NCBI RefSeq assembly: GCF_000485595.1
Contig: NW_014578271.1
Span: 53,647 to 91,682 of the forward strand
Source of the DNA: Priapulus caudatus
Lineage: Eukaryota; Priapulida; Priapulimorpha; Priapulimorphida; Priapulidae
DNA length: 38,036 nt
Direction: 5' to 3'
Shown here in pieces: positions 7,910 to 33,618 of this stretch. The notes under the pieces are model-generated. The model had not been told where the DNA came from and searched no databases. It was given only the letters and a program-made list of their open reading frames with translations. The translations under genes and the position numbers were made by a program. Position 1 is the first letter of the stretch. Every line of letters begins with the position of its first letter.

Positions 7910-10900
7910 TTATACTATAAATTGTGAAATAAATGCCCATTTGCCATAAAACTTGTCAAATCTGTTGTTTGTTATTGCTATATATTTTTCTACTTCCATG
8001 ATGTATTTTAGATATGCTTTAACCGCAGCCAAGGATGGTCTCTTCCTGCTTAATTTGCATCTATAAATGGTAAATTTGGCAATCAGTATAGTGAAATTAA
8101 ATGCTGTATCTTCTTCAGGCTTGCCTAATAAGATATCAGCAGGTTGAAGTCGTTCTATATGTATATATCCACATCTTGTCAACCATTGCTGCAGGTCTAA
8201 CCACATCCGAAACACATGTTCACATTCTACAAACAGATGGAGCATTGTTTCTACATTGGATTCACAAAAGGAACATTTATCTGAGTCTTTGATATCTATG
8301 AGGGCAAGAAATTTGTTTGTGGCAAGGATGCGATGAAGTATTTTGTGTTGAAAATACCTTAATCGTGTGTCTAATGTAATTAAAAATGGTAACTTGTAAA
8401 ATTTGTTCCATTGTATATACTCCTCATTTTGGAAACCAAGATCCCATCTCCACTTATTTTGGGAGGGAGGCATGGTGTCGTTTGTACACTGGGAAAAGAA
8501 TTTTGAGTATGCACTACATCCTTTTTCAACTGAAAGAACAGCTAATAGCTGTGGGGATATAAATGTAGTGTGCGGTGATTGTTGGCCTAAGATAACACAA
8601 AGCCATGTGTTTGGTACTGCATTAATCAATCTATGATAATCAAGAAAGGTAATCGATATGTGATAATCCGATTTTAAACCTTGGAGTGTTTTCGATTTAC
8701 CATCTTCTTTGACCAAGTCTCTGACGCATAAAAGATTTTTATTTTCCCAAGCTTTGATATATTCCATTTTTATATATGAGTTACCCCAAAAGGGTTGATT
8801 TAGTATATCAGACAAAGTTTTTGATTCGAATTTTTCACCAAACACTGACCATGCCGACACTACATCATACCAAAATGGGTTTTCAATTTTTGGAACATGT
8901 ATGTGGAACCTGGGTCCCATTTTAAGTATAGTTTTTATATTGTATTTTTCAGGGAAAACACTCAAAGTATTTTGCTTTTTACAAAGTCGTTTGATCCATG
9001 ACAGTTTTAAACTTTTTATATAGTTATCTATATTGACCATATTTAAACCTCCCTTATCATACCTTTTAACTATTGTTTCTTTTTTAATTTTTGTAGGTTT
9101 TTTATTCTAAATAAATTGGAAAAACAAAGTGTGAATTTCTTTTATGGTAGTTTCACTGGGGTTAGAAAGTGACATCAATAAATGACTAATTTGGGGTAGA
9201 ACAAGAGATTTAATTACAGTGATTTTTCCAAGTGGTGTTAGGTTGCGAAATGACCATAAATTAAGAAGGTTTTTTATGTTTTGTATCCCGGGAAGTATAT
9301 TGTGTTCTGTAATAGAAAAAATATCTAGAACTGAAAAGTCTACACCTAATGTAGTAAAAGATTTTTGTCCAATCAAGATTATTTTCTCTGCAGAAACGAC
9401 GATCCGATTCTCGCATTGATCCCAACCAAACAACTTTTGTTTTTTCCATGTTAACCTTTAGCCCAGAGATATGATAAAACCATCTCAAAGTAGTTAGTGA
9501 TTCCCTAAATGATGTTTCACTACCATCTAACAGGAGAGAGGTATCATCAGCGTATTGTGATATTTTAAATATTTGGTCCCACAGTTTAATACCTTTAATA
9601 TCCTTATTATTCCTGATCGCTATACCTAAAAGCTCGGCACACATTACAAAGATGTAGGGAAAAATTGGGTCACCTTGTCTGCAGCCCCTGCCTAATTTTA
9701 GAAAACCTGAAAAATGTCCATTTTGAATAATACATGATTCTGTGTTTTCCTGGAACAAATGAATCCATCTTTTGATAGAGTCTCCAAAGTTAAATACCTC
9801 CAGAGTTTTTTTAATAAAAGCCCAGGAAACTGTATCAAAGGCCTTTTCGAAATCGATCAGCAATAACATCCCAGCTATATTTTGTTTTTGTGTCTCAAAA
9901 ATCACATCATGTATTAGCCGAATATTTTCGCCGATAAACCTTCCGAGGATAAAACCCTTTTGATCTTGATGAATTAGGATGTCAAGAACTGACTTGATTC
10001 GTTCAGCTATGCAAGATGACATAATTTTATAGGTGAAATTTAACAGAGAAATTGGACGCCAGTTTTTCAAGAGATTGCGTGGTTTACCCGTTTTTGGAAT
10101 GCAAGTGATGACACCTTGTTTTTGGGTAATGGACATTGAGCTATTATCGTATGCAGAGTTAATTGAACGGAGTAGAAAATGTCCAATATCATTCCAAAAG
10201 AATTTGAAAAATTCAGCAGTATAGCCATCTATGCCTGGGCTTTTTTTTGTTTTTCGATCTTTTTAATGCATCTAGGAGTTCATTATGTGTGATTTGACCT
10301 TCAATGCTATGTCTTTCTTTTTCTGATAGGGTTGGTATATCTTCTAAATTCAGTTTTTCAAAAAAGTTGGCATTGTCAACAACATCACTTCTACATGAAT
10401 ATAAATTTTCATAGAATATTTAATTGTTGTGTCCGGAGGATTTCCTTTCTTTGTGTTACTAAGGTCCCATAATCTTTTTTTAATTACAGTATTTTTTTAT
10501 TAATATAGTTACGATTTTCTAAATTACAAAAATATGAGGTTGGTTTTTCACCATGTTCATGCCATCTTGCTCTCGATCTAATTATTGTCCCTTTAATACG
10601 GTTATCACGAAGGTCTTCTAACTCTAAATTTAATTTCTCCAAAGCAACTAAATTTGTTTCTGCCGTGATGGAGTTTTCTTTTATTTGTTTGTCGAGGCTA
10701 AAAATCTTTTCCTCTAAATTTTTTTCGAAATGGCAATTTTCGCGCTTTTTGCGGGATGCATAAGAGATAATTCTTCCTCTTACATGAACTAAGAGTTTCC
10801 CAAAACAGTTGGTCATCAATATGGAGCTGGAGGTCTTTACATGGACAGTTTTCTATGTAATCTGGATTATATGGAGTGGCAGCATATATGGATTTCATAG

Positions 10901-12155
10901 TTGCTATTTCTTTTTTGATTAATTTAAAGTGATTACGTCACGAATTTCTAGCACCAGCAAGTAGTACATTTGTGTGTTATTTGTACAAAATAAAATGTAT
11001 GAAAATACAATTAGTGTTTCTATTTACTTTTCATGCTTATATACCTTCTTTATATGCCCTAATTTGCCGGTGAAAAACAGAGAGACGCCAGTATCTGAAC
11101 AGTACTGGGGGAATAGGTTAGACAACAGAAATTACCAAATCGTCTAGATTTTTGCAAATTTAACCAACGTAAAAACATTTTTATCAGGTGAGAGTTTGAG
11201 GATATATTTAGTAACGTTAGTTCTTACTTTTAATGTAAAGAAATGGCAATTTTTTTTTTACAAATTTTACCATAGAAAATTCGTGACGTAGAAATACGTA
11301 GAAATTCGTAGAAATACGTAGAAATTCGTGACGTAGTGAAATTTCGTTCGTAACAAAATTTTGATCTTTCAGTAGTAAATTATTAAATTTCCAGTACCCC
11401 TTTCAATGTTTTTCAGAGACTATGTTTATAGTGATATTAACTGGGGCATGATCGGATTTATATTTGGGTAGTATGTGGGCATTTGAAAAAATCGATAGTA
11501 AGTTTTCTGTAGCAAGAAAGAAGTCCAAGCGTGCCATTTTTATTGGATTTTTTTTTGACCATGTGTAGTGTCTTTCATTTTCGTGGAATATTCTCCATAC
11601 GTCTATTAGGCCTCTTTCGGCTATAAAAGATAGAACGCTGCTCCGAGCTCTTGGGTTGTTAACTGATTTATAGTTAAAGAGATCTTTCTCTGTGTCTAGA
11701 ATTAGGTTCCAATCTCCACAATAAACATAGTTTACATTGCCAAAGTCTTCAATAATATTAAATATATTGGTATAGAAGTCGGGCTTATCCTCGTTTGGTC
11801 CATAAAGATTAACCAAAGTAATTTGCATTTGGTTTTCGATTGTAATATCTAGTACAATATAATTTCCACAAGGGTCTATTTTACTTCGGTGTACTTTGTA
11901 TTCGAAACCAGTGTTAAATAAGATTGCCACACCTCTAGCATTTGATGTGAATGGACCTATAATTGCACTTAGACCCCATTCTGCCCCGACCCGATTTACA
12001 AATTTTGGGTCGATATGTATATCTTGTAAGCAAACAATATGTATGTTCTGTTCCCGAAATCTTTTGAAGAAGTCCCTACGCTTAAATGGATTGACCATGC
12101 CTCTAGTGTTAGAGATTGAATATTTAACTGGGCCATTTTGTTTGTTTGTTTTTTA
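7910..12155 (-). pseudogene. LINE ORF2 remnant: endonuclease and reverse transcriptase
   Basis: Copies the element RNA into DNA at a nicked target site. The endonuclease (12140-11403) shows an SISNTRG start, VNLYGPN, GDWN, RLDFFLA and SDHAPV. The usual LQETH is LQDIH here, so the catalytic Glu position is Asp. A TGA follows SEKH, after which the linker GYWKFNN continues in frame until a MITE interrupts at 11334. The linker resumes at 10932 (KLIKKEIATMKS), shifts frame near 10797, and runs to RARWHEHGEKPTSYF. The reverse transcriptase (10370-9107) has NWRPISLLN, LLIDFEKAFD, RQGDPIFPYI, the catalytic QYADD and GLKVNMEKTK. Frame changes occur near 9420 and 9107. The last block (9040-7910) holds a CSFC...HLFVEC zinc motif. 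No start codon precedes the endonuclease in frame before Met at 12098. Confidence 0.9.
10933..11334. mobile_element. 0.4 kb MITE inserted in the LINE, 5-bp target duplication
   Basis: The ends are inverted repeats: TTACGTCACGAATTTCTA on the left and TAGAAATTCGTGACGT on the right. AGTGA flanks both sides (10928-10932 and 11335-11339). The reverse-transcriptase linker of the LINE is readable right up to each edge, which confirms an insertion. The right end also holds a tandem GTAGAAATACGTAGAAATTC repeat. No coding capacity. The class is unknown. Confidence 0.75.
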
Positions 12156-13014: not shown

Positions 13015-13809
13015 TCATTCTTTCTTTTTCCAAGAGTCTGCACTGTTTTTTCTTGTTTCGATGAAAATGTCCGTCCCCCGCTCGACGACTCTTGCCTGTA
13101 GTTCACCGTTTTTCCTCGTCTCATACGCCTCGTGGGCCAGTGCTCCTCTTTTTGCTTTTAGCTCAGGCGGCAAGTCAGTGCGGATGCTGTATTTCTTGCC
13201 AGCTAAATGTTTTCCTGACCTTAAAAAGGCTTCTCTCTCCGTCCAGTATAGGAACACGAGTATGATAGGCGTTTGTCCGAGAGAGCGCTTTTGAAGGCGA
13301 TGTGCGTTTCTGATGGTTAGACGTTTTGCGTAGCCTTCTTCGTACTGTAGATGTTCAACAGCGAATTTTCGCACGCGCTCAATCGTTCCTGCCGGTTAGG
13401 TTTCGTGGCCTTCAACTCCGTAGATAAGTAGATTGTACTTGCGGCTATGTGTTTGGGCCACAAGCAATGACTGCCGAAGATCGTTGATTTCTCGTTTCAC
13501 TGTTTGCATCTGTTCTTGAGTTTCGTTTTGCACCTTTTTCACATTGTCGACGTCCATTTCCAAACTGTCGATCTTTTCCGTTAACTGTGTTATTTTTTGC
13601 TTTACTTCTTCGAAACCAACAAAGATGAGTTGTTTGAGTTCAGCATTTGTGACCTCGTTGCTTACGTTAGCGGCCGCCATTGTTGTTGAAGTTGAACCGG
13701 CCGATTCAGTATCCACGGAAATGTTCTGTTTCTCTTTTCTTGCGCTATTTTGGCGAGTTAGATAATGATGGATACTTTCCTTACCCACTTTTGATTTACC
13801 TCTTCTCAT
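13015..13809 (-). pseudogene. LINE ORF1 (RNA-binding chaperone) with one nonsense codon
   Basis: An ORF1-type protein that would coat the element RNA. It starts at an ATG at 13809 and runs 264 codons in a single frame, broken only by TAA at 13398-13396. Before the stop there is a basic N-terminus, then a coiled coil (about residues 55-110, heptads in KQKITQLTEKIDSLEMDVDNV) and the first RRM strand NLLIYGVEG. After the stop come the rest of the RRM (IRNAHRLQKRS, IILVFLYWTEREAFL) and the C-terminal domain (LPPELKAKRGALAHEA). This is the order in L1 ORF1p. One stop in an otherwise open frame suggests recent decay or a sequencing error. Confidence 0.85.
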
Positions 13810-13905
13810 GCTACGCTGCCTGTTATGCCTTGTTCGTTAATCATTCGTTTTCTTGCTGGAAGCGATGCTACACCCGTCTTACACCACAGTCGCCATGACA
13901 CTTAT

Positions 13906-17700: not shown

Positions 17701-20700
17701 GTAAGACAATCATTACAGCTATAGCTAGCTCATGCATTGTTAGCAAATGCTAAAACCATGAAGCAGTGGCCAGAGCAGCAAAAATATAATGACTACTTTT
17801 GAAAAAGATAAAGAGTTAAAAATTAAAAGCTCAATATACCTTGAACCCATACGTGTGGCCAGGTGAAACACCTGCTCCTTGGTCGGCCCACAGGCATTCC
17901 GCTTTGTAGGCAGTCCTGTGTCCACCAGGATCAGCCACAGCCATGTGCCTTTTGCTTGTAGATTGTGGTGGCGGCCACGACCATTTGTTATCCACATAAA
18001 CAAAAGACGTCACATGTCCTTCCAGCCCTATAACAGTATAGTTCAGAAATGATAAATTATAAAGATTTTAAGGGCAACTATAATATCTGAGAAGCAATAA
18101 TATTGTAAACTATAGTGTCACACCTTGAACTGATAGGTAATTCACATTAAGCGTTGTTATAACAAATGAAGAATGCTAGCAAAAAAGTAATGAACATCCA
18201 ATATGGCAGGTACAGTAGAAAAGATTGCTGCAAATTTTATAATTAAGTGAAAGATCTTATAATATGTATAATTAAGTAGAATGTCCTTAAATATTTGCAT
18301 GTGAAAAGCCTGTCATGAATCCACAAAATACGTTTTCTGGCCCTACATGAAGCAATTGAGATTGGTGTCATCATTTAAGTCTCTGGTCCATTTAAGGGTG
18401 ATACTCCATTAGGAGTGTTCCCAACTTTAATGTCATTAATGGTCATAATAACATATATATATATATATTAGGGTCATATATTAGTTTGTGGTTTAATGTC
18501 ATTGAGGTTAGGGTTAGGGTTAGGGTTAGAGTTAGGGTTAGGATTATCAATCAATAATCATTAATCATTAATGATATCAAAGTTGGGAACACTCCTAATG
18601 GAGTGTTAGCCTAATTTAAAGAAATTTGTTGAATCAGAAAACAAGTGTACATTATGTTATATATGTACATATATACTGTAAAGTCAGTTATTTTCGTGGG
18701 TTCCAATTTTCGTGGTTTCAATAAACAAGTGCCGCGGAGCGACAGCGCTCATCTCACGTCTACTGCGGTGACTCTGTGGTGGAGTGGTGGGATTCTAGTA
18801 AACCCTGTTAGTCCCAAATGTGTTCACATACGCGCCAAAACAGTGGAAGGCACAGGGATGGTACAGGAACCTTCTCGAAGGAATGTTCGTTGGGATCGTT
18901 ATGAAAGTGCCACGAGATAGCGCATACGTTTAAGTGTCTTAAGATTAAAGATGAAAGCTCCAATTGTACATAGTAGCAACAACTATTTGCAAGACAGAAT
19001 AGGTAAGCACTCATCGATTTACCTACGCAAGCCTACAGGCTGAAATAGAGAGCTGCCACCTGTAACTAATTAACGCAGGCAAAAACTACACAGAACTATC
19101 ACCACCACATGCACTGGCAGTGGCTACTGGCAGTGGCATAAGTTACTGCTGTAACACACTGACAGTACAGAATGCCATCGAAATTATACGATTTAAGGAG
19201 CATAAACCTTCTTCAACCAAATTTAGCTTTTGAAATTTCACTGTAACATTGTAGCCTCATCCGTCCAGGCATGTATAGATTCTACTAGCAAATCCGGCAG
19301 TCAAATTCTTTCTAAAAGTTAAATAAGTTAAATCCTTCCCGCGCCTTCATACGCATAGCGTATAGCTACATGGCACATAAGGCGGTGCCTATCTCCGTTT
19401 CAGTAACCCTGAGGCCCCGCAGCTGCTTTCACAGTAAATGCTACAGTAGGGGGTTAGTCCACTGGTAGCACTGCGAGTTAACTTGCCACACTCTATCTCT
19501 ATTTGCTGAATGCTAAGCAGAGAAGCCGTGTGTACCATTTTTCAAGTCTTTGGTATGACCTGGCTGGGAGTTGAACCCCCCGACCTTCCACATACGAGGC
19601 GAGCACTCAACCATTGAGCCATCGCAGTGGTATTGCTGTGGAAATTCTTTCTAACAGTAAACAAATCCATGTTTAACCCTCCTCTTGAGGGTCAAAAGGT
19701 TATCCGACAAATCTGCCCTGTGCCCATTGACCTTTGACCTGTAACCTCCAATTTCGGCACAGTGATGACTTTTCCTACCATGATGCTATACACCGACTAT
19801 CACGAGCCTAGGTCGAGCCGTTTGGATTTGTGCCGCAATTCTGCATTTTCTCCCTATACCTTAAGTTAAGGAGGGAATGTTCCCCCTTCTTTTACACCTC
19901 TTGACCTATGACCTTTGACCCCCAGCTTCGACATCCCAACTCGTTTTCGGATTACCCCCCCACGTCCCGACTTTAGAATCCGTACGTCGAGCCCTTTAGA
20001 TTTGTGCCCAACTGTTGACGGACGCACGGACGCACGCACGGACGATCATGCGATTCTACAAGCTGCATCTGACTTCGTCGGATGAGCTAAAAATACATGT
20101 TCGTGGGTTCTTAAATTCGTGGATTAAGCCTTCCAATAAATTTGGACATATGTACATGATATTTCGTTGGGTACATTAATTCGTGGATTGATGTACCCAC
20201 GAAATCCACGAAAATTAGAACCCCACGAAAAAAAGGATGTTACATTAGTAAAAAAAGCACATAACCTTACACCTTAGGTAGCTATAGATACCAAATACAC
20301 GTAAAGTTTCAAGGTCCTTAGTTAAGCCGTTTAGATTTGTTTCACCATTGTTGATGGATGGATGGGTGATGATGGGCGCTAGAGCCATTTAGTCTGGTAG
20401 CTTATGCATTCCCGTGGGCATTTAATGATTAAAGCAAGAGACCTATGTTAATATCTTTATAATATAGTATACTATAGAACAAGAAAAATGAAGGTGGCAA
20501 TCTGGGATATTGCGCAAACATTATTTTTATCAGCGATTTTATGAAACGCGTCGATCGCAAAATAGACAATTTTCCCAAAAATACAATTTTTTAAATAAAA
20601 AGACGATTTAAGCAGTTACAAACTTAATTTTGGTGTCAAAATGCAAGGAATGGATGGAAGGATCCACTAAAATAGTAACAATCAGCTAACAATTTATGAC

Positions 20701-23700
20701 CATAATGATGACTTTTAGACATGGATGGCAAAACTATGAAAATGCGCTCAACGAATACTTCGGTTTCATCGTCGATATTGAACATAAATGGCAATAACTT
20801 CACAAATGTACAGTGATCATTTTTATATACCAAAATCAACCTCTATTATTCCCCTGATTAAAAATATTAAAAACATTGGCAAAATATTTGTAAAACATTT
20901 AATAATAATTACTAACATAACCACCCCCCTAGTGAAAGTTAATTTACGCCAAAATCGTCATGTGAGTTTTTCTTATATTGAATGAAATTCATACCATAAA
21001 TATGTCTATAGAGTCCTTTCAAAGTCTTATATGTCAAACTGGGAACCCCTCATAACTCAATTGCTGCAGAACTGGAGCAAATTCAAAATGGCTGCTATTT
21101 TACCATTCATAATATACACACACATCGCCGATTAAGATTCATACCTTGTTAAATTACAGTTTGGCGAATAGCATGCAAATTGCAAAGAGTCATGACAAGT
21201 ATTCACAATCATACTTGTCACTTTATTAACAATTGCCAACTACAAGTATGATTTTGTACAATACACAAGCTGCGAATAGGCATTCTTTACCCATCGTCAT
21301 CGCTCATGGTTCATCATCATCATCATCCTGGCCAACATCGTCATCTGGCATGTTGTAGCACCATCTCCCCTTGAGCAGCTACAAAGTTCCGTGCATCGTA
21401 GCCCAGCCTTCCTGCACTTGCAGCGGTTTGATGAACACTTCGTTTTGGCACAGGAGCACCTGTAAAGTCACATATAATTGTGTCAAGTCAATGGCGTTAA
21501 TAGCATGATTATACAATGCTAATTATATATGTCAGCACAACCATACCTATATGTATACATACATAATTTTTTGTACTATGTGTGTCTACATTCAAACATA
21601 CATATATTGGCCAATGCTATTACCTGACGAGATGAATCACTGCTTCTGGGCAGGCGCAGCGTTGTCATGACAGGCCTGTACTGTCCTTCCACCAAATACC
21701 AGCCATAGTCATCAGGTGAAGGTAACTCCGGATTTGCCACAACGTCCACGCTCCAATAAGTGCCTGGTAGTGTGCCCTCATGATGGCTGCACGAAGAGCA
21801 GCATGTGTCGGTGGCACTCTCTGCTTGCGCTTGTTTCATTTTGAATAGGTGCCACCTGACGTCTGCAACAGTGGTGAGGTCATCTGGAGGTACAGTTTGC
21901 AGACATAGCGTTCGAGAAGATCCATCGTGGTCTCAGACGGGTTTTGCATTGTACCAAATGCTGCCCAAATGCTGCCATCTGCCCAGCTGCCCAAATTCTG
22001 CCATCACGTCTGGATCCATATCAACAGACTTTCCAGCATTCTCTTGCTCATTCCTGAAAATCGCCCAGTGATGTCTGCACCACTGAAAGCATGAAAGCCA
22101 GGGAGTGCTGCGACGGTGCTCGAGCCCAGCGCATCAAAGATCGGTTGAAGTGAAATGCTTCGACGCCTCTGCCCTGTTCCGGTTACAAGGTGAACATTTC
22201 GACACAACTCTGGGTATCGTCTGAGCGCCAGTACGAGGATATCAGTGTCTTGAGAGTGGATGCTGATGGACGTAGCACCTGCAGAGGTAGCCTCCTTGGC
22301 GGAAGGATCAGGTTGTGTCAGCTTCTTCCTGACTACTGGCCCGATGAGAAACGTCTCGATGGTTGCCCTTTGCTTGTCACGCCATGCCACAATAAGTGTT
22401 TCCTCCTGAGTCAGTTCATGCTCGAGTATATTTCAATGCCATGTACGTTGTTTGCTCATCCTTAGTTTTCACATCTGCGAGAGCTTCTGCATCGAGACCC
22501 TTGTGATTGATCTAGAATCTGTTATATGAAGGCTACAGGGACAGCTTTACCAAGTCTTTTCAGTCTTGTAGCGGACTTCAGGGACCTTGCGACATCATAT
22601 CGTCGAAGATCAAATGAACTTCGTCATACTTTCCGAATTTCTGCCAGTGACGTTGTATGAAATGGTTTGCGACATGGGCTTTATCGTGTCTGGCTTGTCT
22701 AAGGACTGCAACTCGCACATTGCGTCGACGACAACAACATTTTGGATCCACTTTCATCATGTTGATTCATCGGGCTCAACGTCAACATCTGGTCGCCGTC
22801 GATGAGGTCCTCGAGGATCGCCATTAGGTCGCTCTTCGAACTGGTATGCAACAGTGCACCATCCGCTGAAAAGGGGATCTTGAACAACGGAAAACTCAAA
22901 GGTACCTACAGCCTCCTTCAAATTCACATCGGTCTTGATTGAAGATAACTATCAATCGAGCAAAGAGTGCTCAGTCTTCTTGAGTTCAAAACTTTGTCGT
23001 CAACTTGCTACTTTACTTTCGCCGCCGTTGTGGACCACATCTTGAGTTTCAGCTTTTTCATTGGTGCCCACAGATTAACACTGGCGTTGTGGTAATTCTT
23101 CATCAACGAATGTTGAAAAGCGCTGCTGACCAATCGCAGGCATGTTTGTGATATCTTGTTGAACTTGTTCAGGCATCACAGCTTTCGTAACCAGATTTAT
23201 CAGCTGATTTCCGTCTTCTGTGAAAGGATTTTGAAATGTTGATCGTTGACATGAGAGCTTGAGCGTTCTGCTCTTGGTGGTGTAGTGCTGACTTTGTGAG
23301 TTTATGGTGAAATGGTCTATGGTGTACTGGTATGCCAGAATCATATGCGCTTCCTGTGCAGTCGAGCGAGTTCTGGTGCAATCAAGAGAAATCTTGCTCT
23401 TGCGTTGGGTTTAGTGTGATGCCGACCGATCCTCCGGACACCTTCATTAAACGATTGACTTGCTCTAGCGCATGGTCGGCATGCTCTTGTAGCTGCTCAG
23501 AGGGAGATGGGTGCGACAACATGCCAGATGACGATGTTGGCCAGGATGATGATGATGATGAACCATCGAGCGATGACGATGGGTAAAGAATGCCTATTCG
23601 CAGCTTGTGTATTGTACAAAATATACTTGTAGTTGGCAATTGTTAATAAAGTGACAAGCTATGATTGTGAATACTTGTTATGACTCTTTGCAATTTGCAT

Positions 23701-26700
23701 GCTATTCGCAAAACTGTAATTTAACAAGGTATGAATCTTAATCGGCGATGTGTGTATATTATGAATGGTAAAATAGGCAGCCATCTTGAATTTGCTCCAG
23801 TTCTGCAGCAATTGAGTTATGCAGGGGTTCCCAGTTTGACATATAAGACTTTGAAAGGACTCTATAGACATATTTATGGTATGAATTTCATTCAATATAA
23901 GAAAAACTCACATGACGATTTTGGCGTAAATTAACTTTCACTAGGGGAGTGGGTTATGTTAGTAATTATTATTAAATGTTTTACAAATATTTTGCCAATG
24001 TTTTTAATATTTTTAATCAGGGGAATAATAGAGGTTGATTTTGGTATATAAATGATCACTAGGTTGTACATTGTGGAAGTTATTGCCATTTATGTTCAAC
24101 ATCGACGATGAAACCGAAGTATTCATTGAGCGCATTTTCATAGTTTTTGCCATTCCATGTCAAAAAAGTCATCATTATGGTCATAAATTGTTACTATTTT
24201 AGTGGATCCTTCCATTCCTTGCATTTTGACACCAAAATTAAGTTTGTAACTGCTTAAATCGTCTTTTTATTTAAAAAATTGTATTTTGGGAAAATTGTCT
24301 ATTTTGCGATCGACGCGTTTTATAAAATCGCTGATAAAATGTTTGCGCAATATCCAGCATTGCCACCTTCATTTTTCTTTTCTATAATATATCATAAAGA
24401 TATTAAAATAGATCTCTTGCTTTAATCATTAAATGCCCACGGGAGATCAATTCATGACATAAGAGACCACACTAATTGTTTAAGCTCAGCCAACTATATA
24501 GTGTCTAGTGCTGAAAAAGTACTTAAAAGTGCAGATTATTTTATACCTTATTTTTATACTTACCATCATATTGAACAGGTGGCAACTGGTGAAGACACCC
24601 CATTCTCCGTAACACACTCAGACCCACTAAAAATCAAAATCCCTAAATTAATAATTCCATGAAACACAGTTGAAGTTTGGTAAGGGATGATGTATTGATT
24701 GCCATTTCCTGACAGTAGATTCACAACTAATATTGTAACCAAATCCACACTTGTGATGATAATTGGACTCTCTTCATTAATATGTTTAAAGCAATGATCT
24801 CTTGAATATTTTAACTGCATTAAGATGTTACTGCTAGTGTAAATGATAACAGCAGGTGTCTAAAATAGAAGTTCTTTATGACTTACACAATGTAATGTTA
24901 AGATCAGTGTTTCCCCTGGCCAAAAAGGTGTGCGAGGCAGTAAATTTTATTTTTATTGATTTCTCGTTCAGTGTCCCAGCAAAGCGAGCGCTTTGGCGCT
25001 CGCCCAGCTAGGGTGTCCAATTTTTGAAACAAGTGCCGCGGAGCGACAGCGCTCATCTAACGTCTACTGCGGTGACTCTGTGGTGGGAGTGGTGGGATTC
25101 TAGTAAACCCTGTTAGTCCCAAATGTGTTCACATACACGCCGAAACAGTGGAATGCACAGGGATGGTATCAGGAACCTTCTCAAAGGAATGTTCGTTGGG
25201 ATCATTATGAAAGTTGCCACGAGATGGCGCGTACGTTTAAGTGTCTTCAGATTAAAAATGGAAGCTCCCATCGTACGTAGTAGCAACAACTATTTGCAAG
25301 ACAGAATAGGTAAGCACTCATCCATTTACCTACGCAAGCCTACAGGCTGCCAATAGAGAGCTGCGCACCTGTAACCAATTAATGCAGGCAAAAACTACAC
25401 AGTACCACCAACACATGCACTGGCAGTAGCCACTGGCAGTGGCATACGGTACATGTAACATACTGACAGTACAGAATGCCATAGAAATTATACGATTTAA
25501 GCAGCATAAACCTTCTTTAATAACCAAATTTAGCTTTTGAAATTTCACTGTGACATTGTAGCCTCATACATCCAGGCATGTATAGATTCTACTAGCAAAC
25601 CCGCACTCAAATTCTTTCTAACAGACAGTCAACACAATCCATGTTAACCCTCCTCTTGAGGGTCAAAAAGGTTATCTGACACTTACTCTCGCATGTCAGC
25701 AGAAGTAGATTTCATGGTCCTTTCAATAATGCCATAAAAATGCTAGGTCACCGCTGAAACAAAAAGCTTTTCAATCGCTCCGTCAGACCATGTCCTCAGA
25801 AAATGTCTAAAATCTGCCCTGTGCCCATTGACCTTTGACCTGTGACCTCCAATTTCGGCACAGTGATGGCTTTTCCTACCATGATGCTATACACCGACTC
25901 TCACGAGCTAGGTCGAGCCATTTAGATTTGTGCCCGCAATTATGCATTTCCTCCCTATACCTTAAGTTAAGGGAGGAATGTTCCCTTCTTTTACACCTCT
26001 TGACCTTGACCTTGACCCCCAGCTTCGACATCCCAACTCGTTTTCGGATTACCCCCCACGTCCCGAATATCGTGACCGTACGTCGAGCCGTTTAGATTTG
26101 TGCCCAACTGTTGACGGACGGGACGGACGGACGGACGGCGACGCTCGGCAACGGACGGGCAGGCGGAGCGTGGACGATCATGCGATTCTACAAGCTGCAT
26201 CTGACTATGTCAGATGAGCTAAAAAATGATGCAATTCGGTGCATTCTTAACTATTCTGAACAGATATTTATAACACTGTATGTGCGTCTTGATTGTAGTA
26301 ACACTAATTTCATCAGCGAGGCGGCCTTTTAGACAAATTTCTGCGTGGCGGCAGAGAATTTGAGCGAGGCGGCCCGCCTCGCCCGTGTCAATGCTGGGGA
26401 AATACTGAAGATTAAGCAGCACATTAGCATTGGTTAGTAAACGTTTGCATTTATAATTTTTGCTGGTGAGCCTCCAGACACAACTAAGTAATAACACAAG
26501 TGCACAATTATATTTATTTTTTTGTATTTAAATTATAAAATCTTTTTATATTTAAAAAAATATTTGCAAATTATTGAATCTGTAACAATATGTTCCACGA
26601 TTGTAAAACAGTTGTTAAAAATGTAAGTTGCATATTTTTTGTACCATATGAGATTAGATATGCATAATGCCTGTCTGTGATGCCATGTTTGAACAGCGAG

Positions 26701-28554
26701 TTGCAAACAGTGAAAGATTTCGATGGCTAGACCCTGCTTATTTCTCGTTTTTATACTCTATAAATCTATGTAAGTTAGGTTTTCTATGATAAGCAGATGA
26801 ATGGGAGTATATTTGACTAAGGTTAAATGATGTTGTTCATTTATGACAAATTTGAAGAGATCATTGCATGAAAAAACACCATCAAATATACAACAGTTAA
26901 TATATATACTTACACTTCAACTTTTCAACCGGAGGAACTTCACACTTCTCTTGGGATGAACATGAAGGTGCTTCCTCCAGCTGTCTCAACCTTATTGATT
27001 TAGGATTGCTAAAGTTAGAATACCATTTACTAAATAAGTGTTTTTTAAATGAGTAGAAGTGCGATTAATAACTTCATTGCCCAGACATTCCGAAATGTAT
27101 TTGTAACTGGTAGGGCATCAAAGCAGCTGGGACAGAGAGGTTAGTTTACATGGTCTGTAACTAGAGAGGCAATTGAAACGAGTTTAGCGAAAGTGCACAG
27201 AGAGATGACTGTTAGCTACACATCTTTGCTTACACATACAGCCTGAGGAGCCAGCCTAGAAATTTAGTGCAAAACTGGGTTTTGTACGAGCATCCATGTT
27301 AGTGAAGTAATGCATATTAAAATAGGAGCTCATTTTGCACATTTTGCAATTATTTAATCATAAAAGCTGGATGTCAGAAAAGATTCCTATGCAAATAATG
27401 TGGGATTTCGTAATTTTGTTTGGTTTTAAATACAGAACCTTTATATTGGTTTTGAAAAACCAAGTACACAGTTACTGTAAGTTTTTTTAAATTTACGACA
27501 CAAGTTTATTGTATACTTACAAGCAAGTGTCCATATGCCTGCGAAGCTCCCCCATGATGATATCTACCCCACATTTCTTGCATGCGACGGTTACCGCAAC
27601 ACCCCTGTGGGTTTCGTCATAGGTTGCAGCATATTTTTGTCAAAATTAGAAAAAAAACTAGCAAATCATACATCACACACTAAAATTTTAATTTCTCTAC
27701 GTGTTTTAGTAAGGTTCAAATACTGCAGCATAATTACGCATTGTTTTCTCATGGCTAAAGCAGTGCAACACTGACCTCACGTGGTGATGCGTCCAGATCT
27801 CCCTGTATCGGCCGAATATAACATGTGGCCGCATTAACACATGAATGCGGTGACCTTAAATAGTTGGGTGTATATCCAGTTGCTGGTAGTGGAATGACCT
27901 GCAGGCAACGGTTAGCACCACCAATGGACCGCAGAAGTTCGAATCCGTTTCTTTCTAATTTTGGATAAAATCCTGCGAGGACTTCAATAAATCCAACAGC
28001 ATCACAGTTTTTGTCTGCAACAAATGTACCAATTTTTAGAAAAGCGTTTATATAAAAATTTGAGGAAGTGCAAGCTATCTGTTAGCATTTTTTGATAATC
28101 AAAATGCAACTTGATGGTAACTGATGGTAACTCTGACATATATCACCTGTCACCTGTCGGTTACACAAGTTGCGGACTTAACAGCCATCTTATAAGAAAT
28201 ATAGTGTCTTTATTGGACATATCTGCAATTATTACACTTGAAAACAACATGCATTGTTTTACGTATAGCCATTTTAGTGATGCATTGCATGTTAATCATA
28301 TTTCAGTGTTTTTTAGTATTGCAAAATGCGATGTAATACTAGTTATTTCATCAATTGCAATTACCTATAACAATCATAATATATGTAAACATATGAAACA
28401 TTCACATGTTCACAACATACCATACAAGTCTGGTTCAACCTAGCGAATAATCCATACAAATAAATTTACCTGAGAATGTGACTCTAGCCATCCCTAAACC
28501 AGCGGCTTTTAAATCATTTTTCTCGTGCTGGTTTGGAACTTTGTCGGTATCCAT
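14732..28554 (-). CDS. Multi-exon gene: C2HC zinc finger plus alpha-protein kinase
   Basis: A spliced minus-strand gene assembled from GT-AG exons: 28554-28470, 28014-27776, 27604-27521, 27008-26914, 24626-24564, 18027-17840, 17644-17582, 15618-15508, 15348-15136 and 14798-14732. Reading phase carries over correctly at seven of the nine joins. It does not at 27776/27604 and 17582/15618, where a short exon may be missing. The product starts with an IRPIQ-containing domain, then a C2HC finger, then an atypical alpha-kinase that would phosphorylate Ser/Thr. The 3' end, with the HxCNxxC zinc site, was not found. Joining the kinase half to the zinc-finger half rests on phase at 24564/18027, so two genes remain possible. 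Introns hold a 4.1 kb transposon, a SINE and other repeats. One extra base in the 15348 exon breaks the frame. Confidence 0.6.
15136..15348 (-). CDS. Exon 9: alpha-kinase core (EPFLEGK...FVKY...DLQG)
   Basis: Encodes ITPYLFVGSGGKSAIVEPFL then EGK, and FVKYIGNEMIQVDDDGDQNS and ALAYYAHEFTKRKLILTDLQ. These are the E-P-x-L-x-G-x-F-x-K-Y and DLQG signatures of alpha-kinases. A five-base A run at about 15272-15276 puts the two halves one base out of frame. This is either a homopolymer error or a disabling mutation. The donor is CCAAG|GTACAG, phase 1. Confidence 0.75.
15508..15618 (-). CDS. Exon 8: alpha-kinase N-lobe helix
   Basis: A long pyrimidine tract leads to the acceptor GAGCTACAG|TGTC; the donor is CCTGT|GTGAGT. 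It encodes VVSQQLCALFSNKLP and then TFEKKPV. It corresponds to the Q..A..LA..FN..LP stretch of alpha-kinases. The partial codon GT joins G of the next exon to give Val, in phase. Confidence 0.65.
16450..16722 (+). repeat. Dispersed repeat with GACGGAC tract and GAGCTAAAAA end
   Basis: Runs through AATTTCAAACATGTGGGTCA and a GGACGGACGGACG array to GGTGAGCTAAAAAA. The same closing pattern (GGACGGAC array, then GATGAGCTAAAAA) ends the repeats at 18723-20093 and 25027-26226. Similar repeats are, from memory, widespread in marine invertebrates. Confidence 0.55.
16988..17387. repeat. 0.4 kb element with GTATCCCC ends and internal tandem copies
   Basis: Begins GTATCCCCCACGATC and ends GCAGGGGATAC, a short inverted repeat. 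Inside, a 70-bp unit starting CACGCTAGGTCAATTAAGGG is perfectly tandem at 17081-17150 and 17151-17219. A third related block is at 17230-17330, where GGTACGCGACACACC also recurs. Non-coding. Confidence 0.65.
17582..17644 (-). CDS. Exon 7: alpha-kinase catalytic-lysine segment
   Basis: Acceptor CCCTGCAG|ATTCTC and donor GTACCG|GTAGTT. The 21 codons include DVVKEYTSMQEA; the VVKEY Lys is the likely ATP-contacting lysine of the alpha-kinase N-lobe. Phase is 0 on both sides. It does not match the next exon found at 15618, so a small exon is probably missing. Confidence 0.55.
17840..18027 (-). CDS. Exon 6: alpha-kinase N-lobe, first part
   Basis: Acceptor GTTATAG|GGCTGG and donor TTCAAG|GTATAT, 188 nt open. 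It encodes LEGHVTSFVYVDNKWSWPPP and, near the end, HMAVADPGGHRTAYKAECLW. The GGxRxAYKA element matches the glycine-rich start of alpha-kinase domains. The exon starts in the phase left by the 24564 donor and ends in phase 0, which fits the next exon. Confidence 0.62.
18028..18402. other. Intron sequence, nothing recognised
   Basis: AT-rich sequence upstream of kinase exon 6, with no exon, repeat or open frame worth reporting. Confidence 0.4.
18403..18604. mobile_element. 202-bp MITE containing a TTAGGG array
   Basis: Inverted ends ACTCCATTAGGAGTGTTCCC extend inward for about 40 bp on each side with few mismatches. The centre holds an AT dinucleotide run (about 18455-18470) and a run of TTAGGG telomere-type repeats (about 18504-18542, with one TTAGAG variant). 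No target duplication could be fixed. Confidence 0.7.
18723..20093 (+). repeat. Dispersed repeat, copy A
   Basis: Starts AAACAAGTGCCGCGGAGCGA and ends GATGAGCTAAAAA. Copy B (25027-26226) matches across its length except for a SINE present only here and an extra segment of about 130 bp present only in copy B (about 25680-25810). Its ends contain GCTCATC and GATGAGC, and a GACGGACGCACG tract precedes the 3' end. The class is not known; no target duplication was seen. Non-coding. Confidence 0.75.
19316..19641 (-). mobile_element. tRNA-derived SINE with 13-bp target duplication
   Basis: Read on the minus strand, the 5' part has an A box (TGGCTCAATGG) and a B box (GGTTCAACTCC) about 45 bp apart, as in a tRNA promoter for RNA polymerase III. 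The 3' tail is a TTTAACTTA-type repeat. AAATTCTTTCTAA flanks it at 19303-19315 and 19642-19654. The matching repeat copy B lacks the insert, showing the empty site. Not a functional tRNA: the stem pairing does not close. Confidence 0.82.
20251..20389. other. Short spacer before transposon copy 1
   Basis: About 140 bp with a GATGGATGG run. Nothing coding. Confidence 0.4.
20390..20952. repeat. Left TIR of transposon copy 1
   Basis: Reverse complement of 23921-24474 with small changes, including about 10 bp lost near the outer end. Landmarks are CCCGTGGGCATTTAATGATT near the tip and TAGTGAAAGTTAATTTACGCC at the inner boundary. Confidence 0.8.
21300..23480 (-). pseudogene. C-terminal half of the transposon protein: XPG-like region and CXC tail
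   Basis: Minus-strand remnant, starting abruptly at ADHALEQVNR (23480). It overlaps the last 100 residues of copy 2 (29179-29560) and continues beyond where copy 2 is cut. In order: TNMPAIGQQRFSTFVDE; DGALLHTSSKSDLMAILEDL (22860-22800); DEVHLIFDRYDVARSLKSAT (about 22620); HSQDTDILVLALRRYPEL (22258); GFHAFSGADITGRFSG (about 22100); and PSPDDYGW...PVMTT (21720-21660). The DTD and GAD acidic motifs resemble PIN/XPG-type nucleases; this is inference. A phase-2 intron (21460-21623, donor CGTCAG|GTAATA, acceptor TTTACAG) leads to a tail with CSCAKTKCSSNRCKC and CTELCSC, a CXC-like zinc motif. Several frameshifts and stops. Confidence 0.78.
21460..21623 (-). other. Intron retained in the transposon gene
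   Basis: 164 nt with donor GTCAG|GTAATAGC and acceptor TTTACAG|GTGC. Joining the flanking exons gives AVIHLVR then CSCAKTKC in one frame, matching the expected order of the family tail. Reading through without splicing does not. One base is missing about 30 bp upstream, so the frame needs that correction. Confidence 0.65.
23485..23586 (+). pseudogene. Inverted duplicate of the transposon gene's 3' end
   Basis: On the plus strand it reads CSCSEGDGCDNMPDDD, then an acidic tail of Asp/Glu/Ser ending at TAA (23584-23586). AATAAA follows at 23645-23650. It is the same tail that the minus-strand gene carries at about 21300-21386, but in the opposite direction. It abuts the truncated gene at about 23481-23484, the breakpoint of the rearrangement. 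The acidic C-terminus is better preserved here than in the left arm. Confidence 0.7.
23921..24474. repeat. Right TIR of transposon copy 1
   Basis: Closely matches the right TIR of copy 2 (33058-33618) in the same orientation. Both end CATAAGAGACCACACTA, so that end of the element is fixed by two independent copies. Confidence 0.85.
24564..24626 (-). CDS. Exon 5: short linker exon
   Basis: 63 nt between TTTTTAG|TGGG and GATG|GTAAGT. Only one of the three frames is open (GLSVLRRMGCLHQLPPVQYD), and it is the frame predicted by both neighbours. The 4.1 kb TIR transposon starts about 90 bp further along the following intron. Confidence 0.5.
24905..26407. mobile_element. hAT-like element with 5-bp target duplication, carrying another repeat
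   Basis: Ends CAGTGTTTCCCC and GGGGAAATACTG are inverted repeats. AAGAT flanks both sides (24900-24904 and 26408-26412). Palindromic GCGAGGCGGCCCGCCTCGC and GCGAGCGCTTTGGCGCTCGC motifs lie near the two ends. The middle is occupied by dispersed-repeat copy B (25027-26226). End sequence and duplication length match the style of the element at 3226-4139. No transposase. Confidence 0.72.
25027..26226 (+). repeat. Dispersed repeat, copy B
   Basis: Second copy of the 18723-20093 repeat, from AAACAAGTGCCGCGG to GATGAGCTAAAAAA, here inside a hAT-like element and without the SINE. Its GACGGACGGACGG tract is longer than in copy A. Open frames within it differ from those of copy A, so none is likely to be real. 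Confidence 0.78.
26413..26913. other. Intron sequence, nothing recognised
   Basis: AT-rich intron between exons 4 and 5 of the kinase gene. No repeat ends or further exons were identified. Confidence 0.4.
26914..27008 (-). CDS. Exon 4: charged linker
   Basis: Acceptor CTTTAG|CAATCC and donor AAGT|GTAAGT. It encodes NPKSIRLRQLEEAPSCSSQE followed by KCEVPPVEKLK, a hydrophilic linker after the zinc finger. Phase agrees with exon 3 on one side and with the 24626-24564 exon on the other. Confidence 0.6.
27521..27604 (-). CDS. Exon 3: C2HC (UBZ-like) zinc finger
   Basis: Lies between an acceptor CCCACAG and a donor CTT|GTAAGT. It encodes ACKKCGVDIIMGELRRHMDT followed by Cys, i.e. C-x2-C-x11-H-x3-C, the spacing of small ubiquitin-binding or nucleic-acid-binding C2HC fingers. 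The two bases left at its end combine with the first base of exon 4 to give Phe, in phase. Its start is not in phase with exon 2. Confidence 0.62.
27776..28014 (-). CDS. Exon 2: IRPIQ-type N-terminal domain
   Basis: Opens after the acceptor TTGTTGCAG and ends at GTGAG|GTCAGT, 239 nt all open. It encodes FIEVLAGFYPKLERNGFELL, then VIPLPATGYTPNYL and YIRPIQGDLDASP. From memory, the FELLR...IP...GY...YIRPxQxDLD pattern occurs in the N-terminal regions of large uncharacterized and HECT-ligase-like proteins of invertebrates and fish. Its function is unknown. It is invisible to ATG-based ORF searches. Confidence 0.62.
28470..28554 (-). CDS. Exon 1: translation start of the zinc finger/kinase gene
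   Basis: Begins with ATG (protein start MDTDKVPNQHEK) and runs 28 codons plus one base to a donor reading TCTCAG|GTAAAT. The leftover G joins AC at the start of the next exon to give Asp, so the splice is in phase. No signal peptide. No TATA box was obvious just upstream. Confidence 0.6.
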
Positions 28555-28970
28555 TTCTGCCAGGCAACAAATTTTGTGGGTCTATGAGTTTTTTACGGCA
28601 ACCAGTATAGTTCCACTACCACCTTTTCATTTTTTTGATACGGGATGGTAGGGTGAGAAGTTGCGATGCAACTCGGAAGAAACTGCGATAAAATACATGA
28701 AACTTTAAGAAACCAATTGCAAACAATTTAACTCCCCAGAATTAAATTCAAACAGGGGGGAGGGGAGGGGAGGGGGAGGGGGAGGGGGGAGGGGGGAAAC
28801 TAGGGGGGTCCGGGGGGCGTGTATTTTTACCGTACGACTAATTAATGCGTAAAATCGCCACTACACCATAGACGGTATTTGGGGTTCTTGTATATATAAG
28901 ATAGCCGAGTCGGTGTACAGCAAAGGTTAACTGTGCATTGTCAGGTTAACTTGAATCATGGTACATACCG
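28555..28970. other. 5' flank of the kinase gene with a G-tract block
   Basis: Upstream of the ATG at 28554. It contains a run of GGGGAGGGG-type tracts at 28756-28822, which could form a G-quadruplex on the plus strand. No TATA box was seen. Whether the G tracts act as a promoter element is unknown. Confidence 0.45.
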
Positions 28971-29147
28971 TTAGTTTGTTTTCCCATTTGACGTTGCAAA
29001 TAGGAAATGGGTTTCTGACCTATTACCTATTTTAAAAATGAAAATAGAAAATAGGAAATGGGCAGATCAGAAATTTTCAGCTTAAAAATAGGAAATAGGT
29101 CAGAAACCCATTTCCTATTTGCAACGTCAAATGGGAAAACAAACTAA
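28971..29147. repeat. 177-bp palindromic MITE-like element
   Basis: The arms start TTAGTTTGTTTTCCCATTTG at the left and mirror it at the right (CAAATGGGAAAACAAACTAA). They stay matched for about 65 bp each around a short centre. Non-coding. It ends 30 bp before the N at 29178. Confidence 0.75.
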
Positions 29148-29177
29148 TTCGAAAATGAGAAATGGGAAATAGGAAAT

Positions 29178-29178
29178 N
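29178..29178. other. Single N, probable contig join
   Basis: The transposon gene is open up to the base after this N and is lost immediately beyond it, replaced by unrelated palindromic sequence. In copy 1 the gene continues smoothly past the same point (about 23110). This points to an artificial join rather than a biological end. Confidence 0.7.
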
Positions 29179-32100
29179 ACGAATGTTGAAAAGCGCTGCT
29201 GACCAATCACAGGCATGTTTGTGATATCTTGTTGGACTTGTTCAGGCATCACAGCTTTCGTAACCAGATTTATCAGCTGATTTCCGTCTTCTGTGAAAGG
29301 ATTTGTGAAATTGTTGATCGTTGACATGAGAGCTTGAGCGTTCTGCTCTTGGTGGTGTAGTGCTGACTTTGTGAGTTCATGGTGAAATGGTCTATGGTGT
29401 ACTGGTATGCCAGCAATCATCTGCGCTTCCTGTGCCAGTCGAGCGAGTTCTGGTGCAATCAAGAAGAATCTTGCTCTTGCGTTGGGGTTTAGTGTGATGC
29501 CGACCGATCCTCCGGACACCTTCATTGAACGATTGACTTGCTCTAGCGCATGGTCGGCTCCGATAGCACAAAATGGCACTGCGTTTTTGTTCACAACCCA
29601 ATTCCCATCCATAAATTCATCCCATAGAGTTGGATCTATCTGGGCTAAGGCTTTCATTTCTGCTAGATAGACAGGAATCATCCGAGCGTAGTTGAGCTGG
29701 TCGTGCGCAAAGTAGTATTTTACAAAGTGTTCGGTCTGACTGAGGTGGAGGTTCCAGTCTGCGGATCGTACAGCTTGGATGTAGGTGATCATATGCAACA
29801 CCATGTGCATGTAGTGTAGCGTAGCCTGTGCAAGCGGTCTGGTGCAAAGTTCTGCGTCATACTCTTTCATCTTCTCGACAAGCCTCATAGTCTCTGTCGT
29901 GTCTGTCATGTGTTGATGTGACTCTCGCATCTCACTGCAGTCGGCTTCTTTGCACGCAATGTTCAGAGATTCAGCTGCTGCCATGCATTCATTGTGGAGG
30001 TTGTTGTTCTTGACAAAGAATTCCTCCGCATACATCTTGAAGAATGCCTGCAGTGTGAGTAGATGTGCATTGATTCCTCTCTTCACATGCTTTCCCTGCA
30101 AGATCTGATTGACTGTACAAGGACCATATATGTCACTTTCAATCCAGCATAAATCAATGCCGCTTTCCTCAATATACGATCCAATCGCCCTAAGTTGTGC
30201 CATCACGACGTGCAGCTCTCCAGGTCGCAGTATCAAATGCTGGAAGTCATCTCGGGACATTTGGAGTTGCTTTGCGGGCTTGTAGAGCCCCATGTCGAGC
30301 GTCACGACTGTCTTACGTTCCGGTCCTACAATTTTTGTGGTGATACCTTGGGCCTGTTTCAGGATCGTTAGCAAAGTCTGAAATTCATGAGCAGGTGCTG
30401 CAATCATTGGAGGTGTGTTCACGTACGTCTGTGGTGTTTCATTTCCAAGAACGGATTTGTAGGCAGCCCATGTTGGAATGTGGGAACCTTCTGTCCTGGG
30501 TTCTGACAGCTCTGCTTCTGGGTTACTGGGTGGCTCTCTGGTGTCTGACAGCTCTGCCTCTTCTGATAGCTCGGGGTTACTCCGTGGCTCTCTGTGTTCT
30601 GCCGCGACAATCAGAACATCACGTCTGGAGAGTGCTTGTCCAAGAAGCCACGTTAGGTGTGGCGAATGTGTTGCTGACAGCAGTTCTGGTTCCAGGCATG
30701 TGAATGCTGAGTAGCATGGACTTGGTGGTTTTGGTGCTTTTGGCATATGGCAAGGAAGCAGGCCAGTAATTGTGTTGGGGAGCTCTGTCAGTGAGCTAGT
30801 GTTGGCTTTACCATGCAGTTCTAACTTGTGGGTGACATCTCCTGGGTGGCATGTTTGATACACGGCCATCACAGTCCCATGCAGTGTTCGTTTTCCGTTT
30901 GGGGTATCCTCCGAAAAGTCGACGTTGTCCACTGCATAAAATACATGTCTGCCTAGAACAGCATTAGCAGGTATGTATGTACCATCATGCTGTATCATAC
31001 GCTCTATAACAGCGTTTGCTATCTGTGTTTCCAGTCGGAGGAGGCGTTCATAGTGCACAGATACACCAAATCCATGTAGGAGATTGATGATCTTTTTACT
31101 TCTTATGGCTTGACGAATAGCCAGGCCGACAGCGAGCTGTTGTGGCATTTCGCGTTGTTGTCGGACTACACAAGACTGTGTACGAGTTTGACGTCCTGAC
31201 ATGAATAATGACACTGCTGTCTGAGAAAGATGTATGGAGTGTTTCTCTCCTGTCTCATACTTTCCGTTAGAAGTAAAGTTCGTCTGTTTGCCTTGGAGAA
31301 GCCACCTGGAGAACGCGAGGAGCTGTTTTGGGACATGTGAGTCGGTGAGGTCATTCAACGAGCCAGTGAAGTCCCATTTATCTGTGTTTGATATGGCCTT
31401 TCGTAGAATTGTAGCAGCATCAAACAGTGTCTTCATTTCCAATGTAATATCATTGACTTGAGCGTCACTGGCGTTGTCAATTGCCGCATCTGCTGTCGAC
31501 TTGATGCTGACGAGCTCGGATTCATTCCTGCGAATCGGCTGATGGAACTCGACGTCAGGAATTTCTCTTTCAATCAGATCTTTCACATTCTTGCGTGGAC
31601 AGTCAGCTTTGAGCACACTGTGCAATTTTCGAATTGCATTATAATGTACATGCAGTTCTGCCATGTTGAGTATTCGCCCATAGTGGAGAACCTCTGTCAA
31701 CAGGCTGATGAATTCGATGTCAGCAGCTGCTTCTTCCACAGGGCTGCATGTTGATTTGTCAGCATATGCTTTGCGGAGAACGTTCGTCACATGTTTTGTC
31801 CAACACTTGTTGTGATATTGCGCGTCTATCGCATGGGCATCAGCAGTATCAATTGCAGTGTTCAGCTTCACACGGAGTTTCTCTTCATTACTCTCATCTA
31901 TCGCAGCACGAAGGTTGTTACCGGCTATTTCTGTTCGGACTCTATGCAATGTAGAATATCGCGATCCTCTTTCGTCACAGAAAAAACATACCTCACTGTC
32001 ATATGGGATGGACATAGAACGTGTGAATTTGCTGGAACTGTCAGGTGTAGGTATTTGAAAGGTTGATTTCTCATACACTTTTCTTTCATACCGTTCCTTT

Positions 32101-32411
32101 GCTCTAGCAGTCATCCTCACGTGCACGGTGTTTTTGTAGCAAGTGCTGTGCCACCTAGCTCCTGATAACATCAATAGTTCTGGAGTTACATCACCTAGTC
32201 GTCGATTTATTTCAGGGTAGTTTTGATCACCGTAAGAGGCTCTCTCTCGTACAAAACTTAACACTCGTTCATGTGCTGACGCTTTTTCTACAAGATTTTC
32301 ACTAGTAACTTGCTGACATAGCAAGCAAAGGACAAAGTTAGTGCCAGGTCTGGCCACTTTGGCCAGTTTACAACCCAAAGAGTCTATGTTAGTCATCGTG
32401 CTAGCCACCAT
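29179..32411 (-). CDS. Transposon-encoded protein, copy 2 (3' end missing)
   Basis: 1077 uninterrupted codons from ATG at 32411 to the N at 29178. Residues 29-91 and 142-203 are two similar zinc-finger-like units, C-x2-C-x55-H-x2-C and C-x2-C-x54-H-x2-C (CLLC...HSTC; CFFC...HNKC). Mid-protein motifs are YAVDNVDFSEDTPNGK (Asp 495), TLDMGLYKPAKQL (Asp 706), GELHVVMAQLRAIG (731-744) and WIESDIYGP (756-764). The spaced Asp/Glu residues could be an RNase H-like transposase core, but no such fold is proven. Residues 608-645 are a Glu/Pro/Ser-rich insert. The last 100 residues match copy 1, which supplies the XPG-like region and CXC tail. From memory, related long proteins are common and uncharacterized in invertebrate genomes. 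An intact frame suggests recent activity. Confidence 0.85.
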
Positions 32412-33057
32412 TTACCAGCCACCAATCAGGAGAAGTGAGGGCATTCATGTGATCATGTGCATTGCAGGCGTTCTGCAATCACAAGTATTAACCAATTATG
32501 CAGATGAAGTAACTTTTATTGGACTTATTTATTATTATATGAACATGTTATTTCTGTTCACGGTAATATAACGCATAACATATACGATTAATATTGCCTC
32601 GTGTGCTACACCTCTTTCCAAAATTATTTGACAGCATTTGATACATTTGGCGTTCCATAGACAGTGTCTGCTATGCGGTTTATTTTGACCTCCATTGTCA
32701 ACATAGTACTAGAGTACTAATTACTAGTATAGAGTACTAATTACACTTATTGCTTTACTATCACATGGCTTAATATTCATGTTATCATTTGGAATAACAA
32801 ATAAATGCTTTTGGTAAGGAGGAAATATGAAGTGACACCATTTGCATCAAGAAACAGCCACCTTCATATGGGTCATTGTTTACACTTTTACCAGTGCTGC
32901 AACCTGGTGAGTGACTATAACGGGTAGGTAAAGAAGTGATAATTTACTTTCTTTTTTTCGTTTTCTTAAATTAGTTATCCCAAAATATTTTCACATTTAA
33001 TAACTTCATTTGATAAAATATATTGACATTACAGTGAGTTTTCTCAAATATTGGCGG
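32412..33057. promoter_or_regulatory. 5' region of transposon copy 2
   Basis: About 645 bp between the start codon and the inner edge of the right TIR. It must contain the promoter and 5' leader of the transposon gene if the element is transcribed from within. No TATA box or other specific element was identified. Copy 1 has lost this segment. Confidence 0.4.
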
Positions 33058-33618
33058 TTGGCGTAAATTAAGTTTCACTAGGGGGGTGGGTTATGTTTGT
33101 AATTATTAATAAATATTTTACAAACATTTTACTAATGTTTTTCATATTTTTAATCAGGAGAATAATACAGGTTGACTTTGGTTTCTAAAAATGATCACTG
33201 GGTTGTATATTTGTGAAGTTATTACCATTTATGTTCAATATCGACGATGAAACCGAAGTATTTTTTGGGCGCATTTTCATAGTTTTTGCTATTCCATGTC
33301 GGAAAAGTCATCATTATGGTCGTAAATTGTTACTATTATACTGGGCCCTTCCATTTCTTGCATTTTGACACCACAATTAAGTTTGTAACTGCTTAATTTG
33401 TCTTTTTATTGGAATTTTTGTATTTTTGGAAAAATCGTCTATTTCACGATCGACACGTTCCATTAAATCGCTGATAAAATAATGTTCGCGCAATATCCCA
33501 GATTGCCACCTTCATTTTTCTTGTTCTATACTATATCATAAAGATATTAAAATAGGTCTCTTGCTTTAATCATTAAATGCCCACGGGAGCTCAATTCATG
33601 ACATAAGAGACCACACTA
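33058..33618. repeat. Right TIR of transposon copy 2
   Basis: 561 bp matching copy 1's right TIR (23921-24474) in the same orientation, and its left TIR in reverse. It starts at TTGGCGTAAATTAAG and ends CATAAGAGACCACACTA. The opposite TIR of copy 2 would lie beyond the N at 29178 and is not in the window. Confidence 0.85.

Follow-up and report, generated by a model that had tools for sequence, protein, structure and literature searches.

Two transposon copies at the locus

A 38,036-nucleotide stretch of the genome of the priapulid Priapulus caudatus (contig NW_014578271.1, positions 53,647 to 91,682; hereafter the window) carries two damaged copies of one DNA transposon (Table 1). Neither copy is intact, so an element still active today would have to lie at another place in this genome. 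Copy 2 has one terminal inverted repeat (TIR), its opposite end being lost at a single N in the assembly (29178). This TIR matched the outer part of the copy 1 right arm (23921-24474) with 88.8% identity over 561 columns (E=0.0), and the copy 1 left arm (20410-20952, minus) matched 33058-33588 with 86.6% identity over 552 columns (blastn, E=0.0). The terminal repeat match between the copies is far beyond chance. The terminal 17-mer, CATAAGAGACCACACTA, was exact at 24458 and 33602, whereas the left end of copy 1 (20390) differed from it at 3 positions. Elsewhere in the window it was found at 6 places when up to 5 mismatches were permitted, each of them with 5.

An earlier reading of this DNA, made from the letters alone (the sequence-only reading), had proposed a TIR of 555-561 bp in two copies. 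The shared repeat was recovered at 86.6-88.8% identity, but the inverted repeat of copy 1 is about 990 bp long and copy 2 has a single TIR. The same reading gave a single span, 20390-33618. This interval is not one unit, and a single large element across it was rejected, since blastn searches with the parts of the element matched nothing in 24478-29177. Next to the N at 29178 lies a 75-bp inverted repeat (window 28971-29147) with 27 bp between its arms, which are 95% complementary.

The arms of copy 1 (20390-21384 and 23487-24474) were 93.3% identical over 989 columns, with 21 mismatches and 19 gap openings. They extended far past the 561 bp common to copy 2, and their inner part took in the final coding nucleotides. 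A natural TIR of 990 bp was ruled out, since the right end of copy 2 matches the outer 561 bp alone. The simplest reading is that the right part of copy 1 is the left (gene 3′) end duplicated in inverted orientation, displacing the first ~937 codons of the gene (numbered as in a related protein, P0001). The outermost bases of copy 1 are TAGT...ACTA, bounded on both sides by ATT, a 3-bp target-site duplication (TSD). Given the base composition, a 3-mer would match at a single set position with a probability of ~0.018 (n=1 copy). Agreement between the flanks stops at 3 bp, and in this one copy there was no TSD of 9-10 bp. An interspersed direct repeat of ~1.1-1.3 kb occurs to the left and to the right of copy 1 (18723-20024 and 25027-26120), in pieces 90-98% identical and spaced about 6.1-6.3 kb apart.

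Table 1. Coordinates (window positions) of the two copies and their parts
Feature	Position	Strand	Basis
Copy 1, fold-back element with internal deletion, both ends kept	20390..24474	.	TIR arms, terminal 17-mer, ATT flanks
Left TSD, ATT	20387..20389	+	Read directly from sequence
Right TSD, ATT	24475..24477	+	Read directly from sequence
Copy 1 left TIR proper (portion common to copy 2 right end)	20390..20952	+	blastn; outermost 20 bp from local alignment
Left arm of the long inverted repeat in copy 1, holding the TIR, the 3′ flank and the end of the coding sequence	20390..21384	+	93.3% vs inverted 23487-24474
Right arm of copy 1, a duplicate of the left end in inverse orientation, replacing the 5′ part of the element	23487..24474	-	Arm-to-arm alignment
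Remnant of the transposase gene in copy 1, C-terminal two fifths kept in broken frames: DDE core (end only), XPG-like nuclease and CXC-like tail	21287..23477	-	Frameshift-aware alignment; stop codon read directly
GT...AG intron (164 bp) ahead of CXC exon	21460..21623	-	Splicing gives P0001-like frame
Copy 2, ending at single assembly N (29178)	29179..33618	.	
Transposase gene in copy 2, open over its first 1,077 codons	29180..32411	-	
Copy 2 right TIR, 5′ of gene	33058..33618	-	88.8% to copy 1 right arm

The transposase gene

The two copies had been described as lying around the same gene. One gene is indeed involved, but the copies hold different stretches of it: copy 2 retains the first 1,077 codons, open as originally reported, and copy 1 about the last 680 (P0001 numbering). 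The stretches overlap by 380 columns at 96.8% identity, with 7 mismatches and 5 gap openings. Copy 2 was 56% identical to residues 3-1063 of P0001. Copy 1 aligned with P0001 from residue 938 to about 1613 over ~2.2 kb, with 398 identities among 660 aligned residues, 26 frameshifts and 2 stops outside the intron; these counts are approximate, as the frameshift-aware alignment used our own scoring and left the intron out of its model. The frameshifts, and the differences between the arms, may be partly uncorrected long-read error and partly decay. With the intron removed, ...AVIHLVR is followed by CSCAKTKC... without a change of frame, which is the arrangement in P0001.

Because copies 2 and 1 cover complementary parts of P0001, the composite protein assembled in the sequence-only reading is real. 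Judged by full-length relatives (1,525-1,697 aa), in which single proteins cover both fragments, the two fragments belong to one protein. No other open frames of at least 120 aa were listed within the two copies, which together represent an incomplete element.

Domain architecture of the protein

Domains were assigned from AlphaFold models and from conservation across aligned relatives. The copy 2 protein comprises two C2HC-like units (residues 29-91 and 142-203), a winged-helix-like domain (221-316) and an RNase H-like DDE core with an insertion (~422-1005). Among rows with a residue at the position, C29 and C32 of the first unit were conserved in 23/23 and H88 and C91 in 25/25. In the second unit C142 was conserved in 25/26, C145 in 26/26, and H200 and C203 in 27/27. 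These counts confirm the paired C2HC-like units noted earlier. The predicted core, with D495, D706 and E957 conserved across relatives, is indicated by the models to be of the RNase H-like DDE type. Its best fold matches were the P element, ISCth4, Hermes and RAG1, but neither phmmer nor profile searches of PDB sequences matched the window protein to the P element, Hermes or RAG1. The phmmer search against PDB sequences gave no match at all, and the profile searches retrieved designed four-helix bundles alone (E 0.32-1.5). The TSDs of the P element, hAT (Hermes) and RAG1 are 8, 8 and 5 bp, respectively, and we know of no XPG domain in their transposases.

The modelled C-terminal part of a relative, P0080, matched EXO1, FEN1 and XPG folds and its acidic motifs were conserved, which indicates a FEN1/EXO1/XPG-type nuclease with its active-site residues in this part of the protein. 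The same domain, with DTD and GAD motifs, is present in the broken frames of copy 1, as is the CXC-like tail 3′ of the intron. The sequence-only reading had already recognised both a PIN/XPG-like region bearing these motifs and, beyond an intron, a CXC-like tail. The likeness to the FEN1/EXO1/XPG 5′-nucleases lies in the fold and in the order of the acidic motifs; here, however, the domain is fused to a transposase, and identity was just 10-18% in the 50 structural alignments listed. The DDE core and the ATT duplication are additions to what had been noted before.

Scanned against Pfam and NCBIfam, the window protein matched no family above cut-off; the single NCBIfam row (E 0.064) scored 13 bits where the cut-off is 221. 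When 35 members of the group were scanned, Pfam DUF6589 covered part of the core in 24 (E<=0.01). In two scans where the cut-off was visible, DUF6589 matches (4/6 and 3/6 proteins) all fell below the gathering score. Pfam TCR was detected in 3/35 members at E<=0.01 (best 0.0017); in the first of the two scans just mentioned it too stayed below the gathering score. The five Pfam families matched by the 35 members at E<=0.01 included no helicase, Kyakuja-Dileera-Zisupton (KDZ) or CxC family.

Relatives and distribution

A search with the 1,077-aa piece found 82 related proteins. Seventeen of the 82 were full-length and kept the whole architecture, with 23-56% identity to the window piece, and many of the remainder were shorter pieces. 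The named relatives came from sea anemones (Actinostola, Exaiptasia), a coral (Porites) and a sea urchin (Strongylocentrotus), and were labelled hypothetical, uncharacterized or unnamed. One relative (P0010) was filed under a Sedimenticola metagenome-assembled genome and is probably animal host DNA within a symbiont bin. A further candidate, P0114, which bears the name of an RNA polymerase III subunit, was dropped, as it had no BLASTP match to the query. A profile comparison of P0082 with the alignment was not counted, since it is circular: P0082 is itself one of the aligned rows.

Four pattern scans of viral and prokaryote contigs were run with 6, 2, 1 and 2 short patterns. They recovered 1 and 25 pattern stretches in viral contigs and 100 and 296 in prokaryote genome contigs, without any relative, which is weak evidence of absence. 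A tblastn search of plasmids gave no match.

Probable assignment to the Academ superfamily

Academ is credited to Kapitonov & Jurka 2010 in Repbase Reports (PMC4455052) and is counted among 20 superfamilies with a DDD/E transposase (PMC9587614). Its amplification has been reported in bivalves (PMC10294476). According to PMC10045372, AcademH has TSDs of 9-10 bp and AcademX of 3-4 bp, and these lengths are linked there to the helicase and the nuclease encoded by the two lineages. A DDE core, a nuclease and a 3-bp TSD occur together in the element described here, as in that account of AcademX, and the element looks like a new member of a known superfamily. The two copies very probably represent an Academ DNA transposon of an AcademX-like lineage, on strong but indirect grounds, the assignment being set by described features. 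The sequence-only reading had considered the element undescribed and outside any named superfamily, and that claim of discovery does not stand.

Compared by description, the likeness to AcademX comprises the DDE transposase, the encoded nuclease, the 3-bp TSD and the TIRs, and no difference was established. AcademH belongs to the same superfamily in that description, but it has a helicase and the longer TSD (PMC10045372). The element has a TSD of 3 bp, not 9-10, and no helicase family was found in the 35 members scanned with Pfam. An alignment search aimed at helicase-bearing AcademH relatives listed no helicase domain in the best 59 of 7,993 scored candidates. The AcademX nuclease is regarded as XPG-like. 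The TIRs of the present element (about 555 bp) look long.

A DDE superfamily distinct from Academ, hitherto unnamed and independently joined to an XPG-type nuclease, would also account for a group whose members are known to Pfam as DUF6589 alone, a family not met in the literature searched. The reliance of the Academ link on descriptions leaves some room for it. We nevertheless consider it unlikely. The TSD length, DDE core and nuclease together agree with the AcademX report (PMC10045372), and the protein Academ-1_NV_tp is listed in PMC9004415. The named relatives of the window protein are from anemones, coral and sea urchin. We take NV in the Academ name to stand for Nematostella.

The cysteine-rich CXC-like tail, together with the TCR matches, could suggest a KDZ-type transposon. 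Pfam has KDZ and CxC models, yet none was among the families matched by the 35 members, and KDZ elements are not known to carry an XPG nuclease or to make a 3-bp TSD; this alternative is very improbable. That the XPG-like gene is a non-autonomous passenger, captured between TIRs moved by another transposase, might be proposed from two copies of which neither is intact, but it is the least credible explanation, as the XPG-bearing protein has its own DDE core and 17 of the 82 relatives keep the whole architecture at full length, a pattern expected for a transposase but not for a gene captured by chance. The earlier suggestion that the gene mobilises the element, a DNA transposon encoding its own transposase with an XPG-type nuclease domain, is supported.

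A proposed transposition mechanism

An intact element would have imperfect TIRs of considerable length (about 555-561 bp) and a single gene, with a product of ~1,600 aa. The N-terminal zinc units and the winged-helix-like domain probably bind the TIRs. By analogy with the chemistry of the DDE class, the RNase H-like core (D495, D706, E957) would cut the ends and join them to target DNA, and a 3-bp stagger at the target would give the 3-bp TSD. The FEN1/EXO1/XPG-type domain probably trims or nicks structured DNA intermediates, for example the 5′ strand that is not transferred, or flaps left at target gaps. Copy 1 appears to have arisen by deletion, its right part overwritten by an inverted copy of the left end; the probable cause is template switching in the course of gap repair.

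We tentatively suggest, as a rather doubtful proposal, that a flap or junction nuclease of its own lets the transposase finish excision or repair 3-bp target gaps with less host help, and that copy 1, which has a left end on each side and a TSD that looks intact, was mobilised as a left-left substrate. If copy 1 did move in this way, one end type would be enough for transposition. The role of a repair-type flap nuclease in a cut-and-paste reaction is a testable question raised by this architecture. The analysis also sets domain boundaries and names candidate active-site residues for a group of DDE-plus-XPG transposases that is represented in Pfam by DUF6589 alone, which would help annotators to mark such genes as transposons.

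Neighbouring sequences

Also in the window is a broken non-long terminal repeat (non-LTR) retrotransposon (7910-12152, minus), with endonuclease (PF03372/PF14529), reverse transcriptase (PF00078) and zf-RVT (PF13966) domains in three separate open frames. Further open frames lie by it at 13015-13836. A pair of direct repeats of ~600 bp was found at 5383-5984 and 6619-7206, with a spacing of ~1.2 kb and pieces 88-99% identical.
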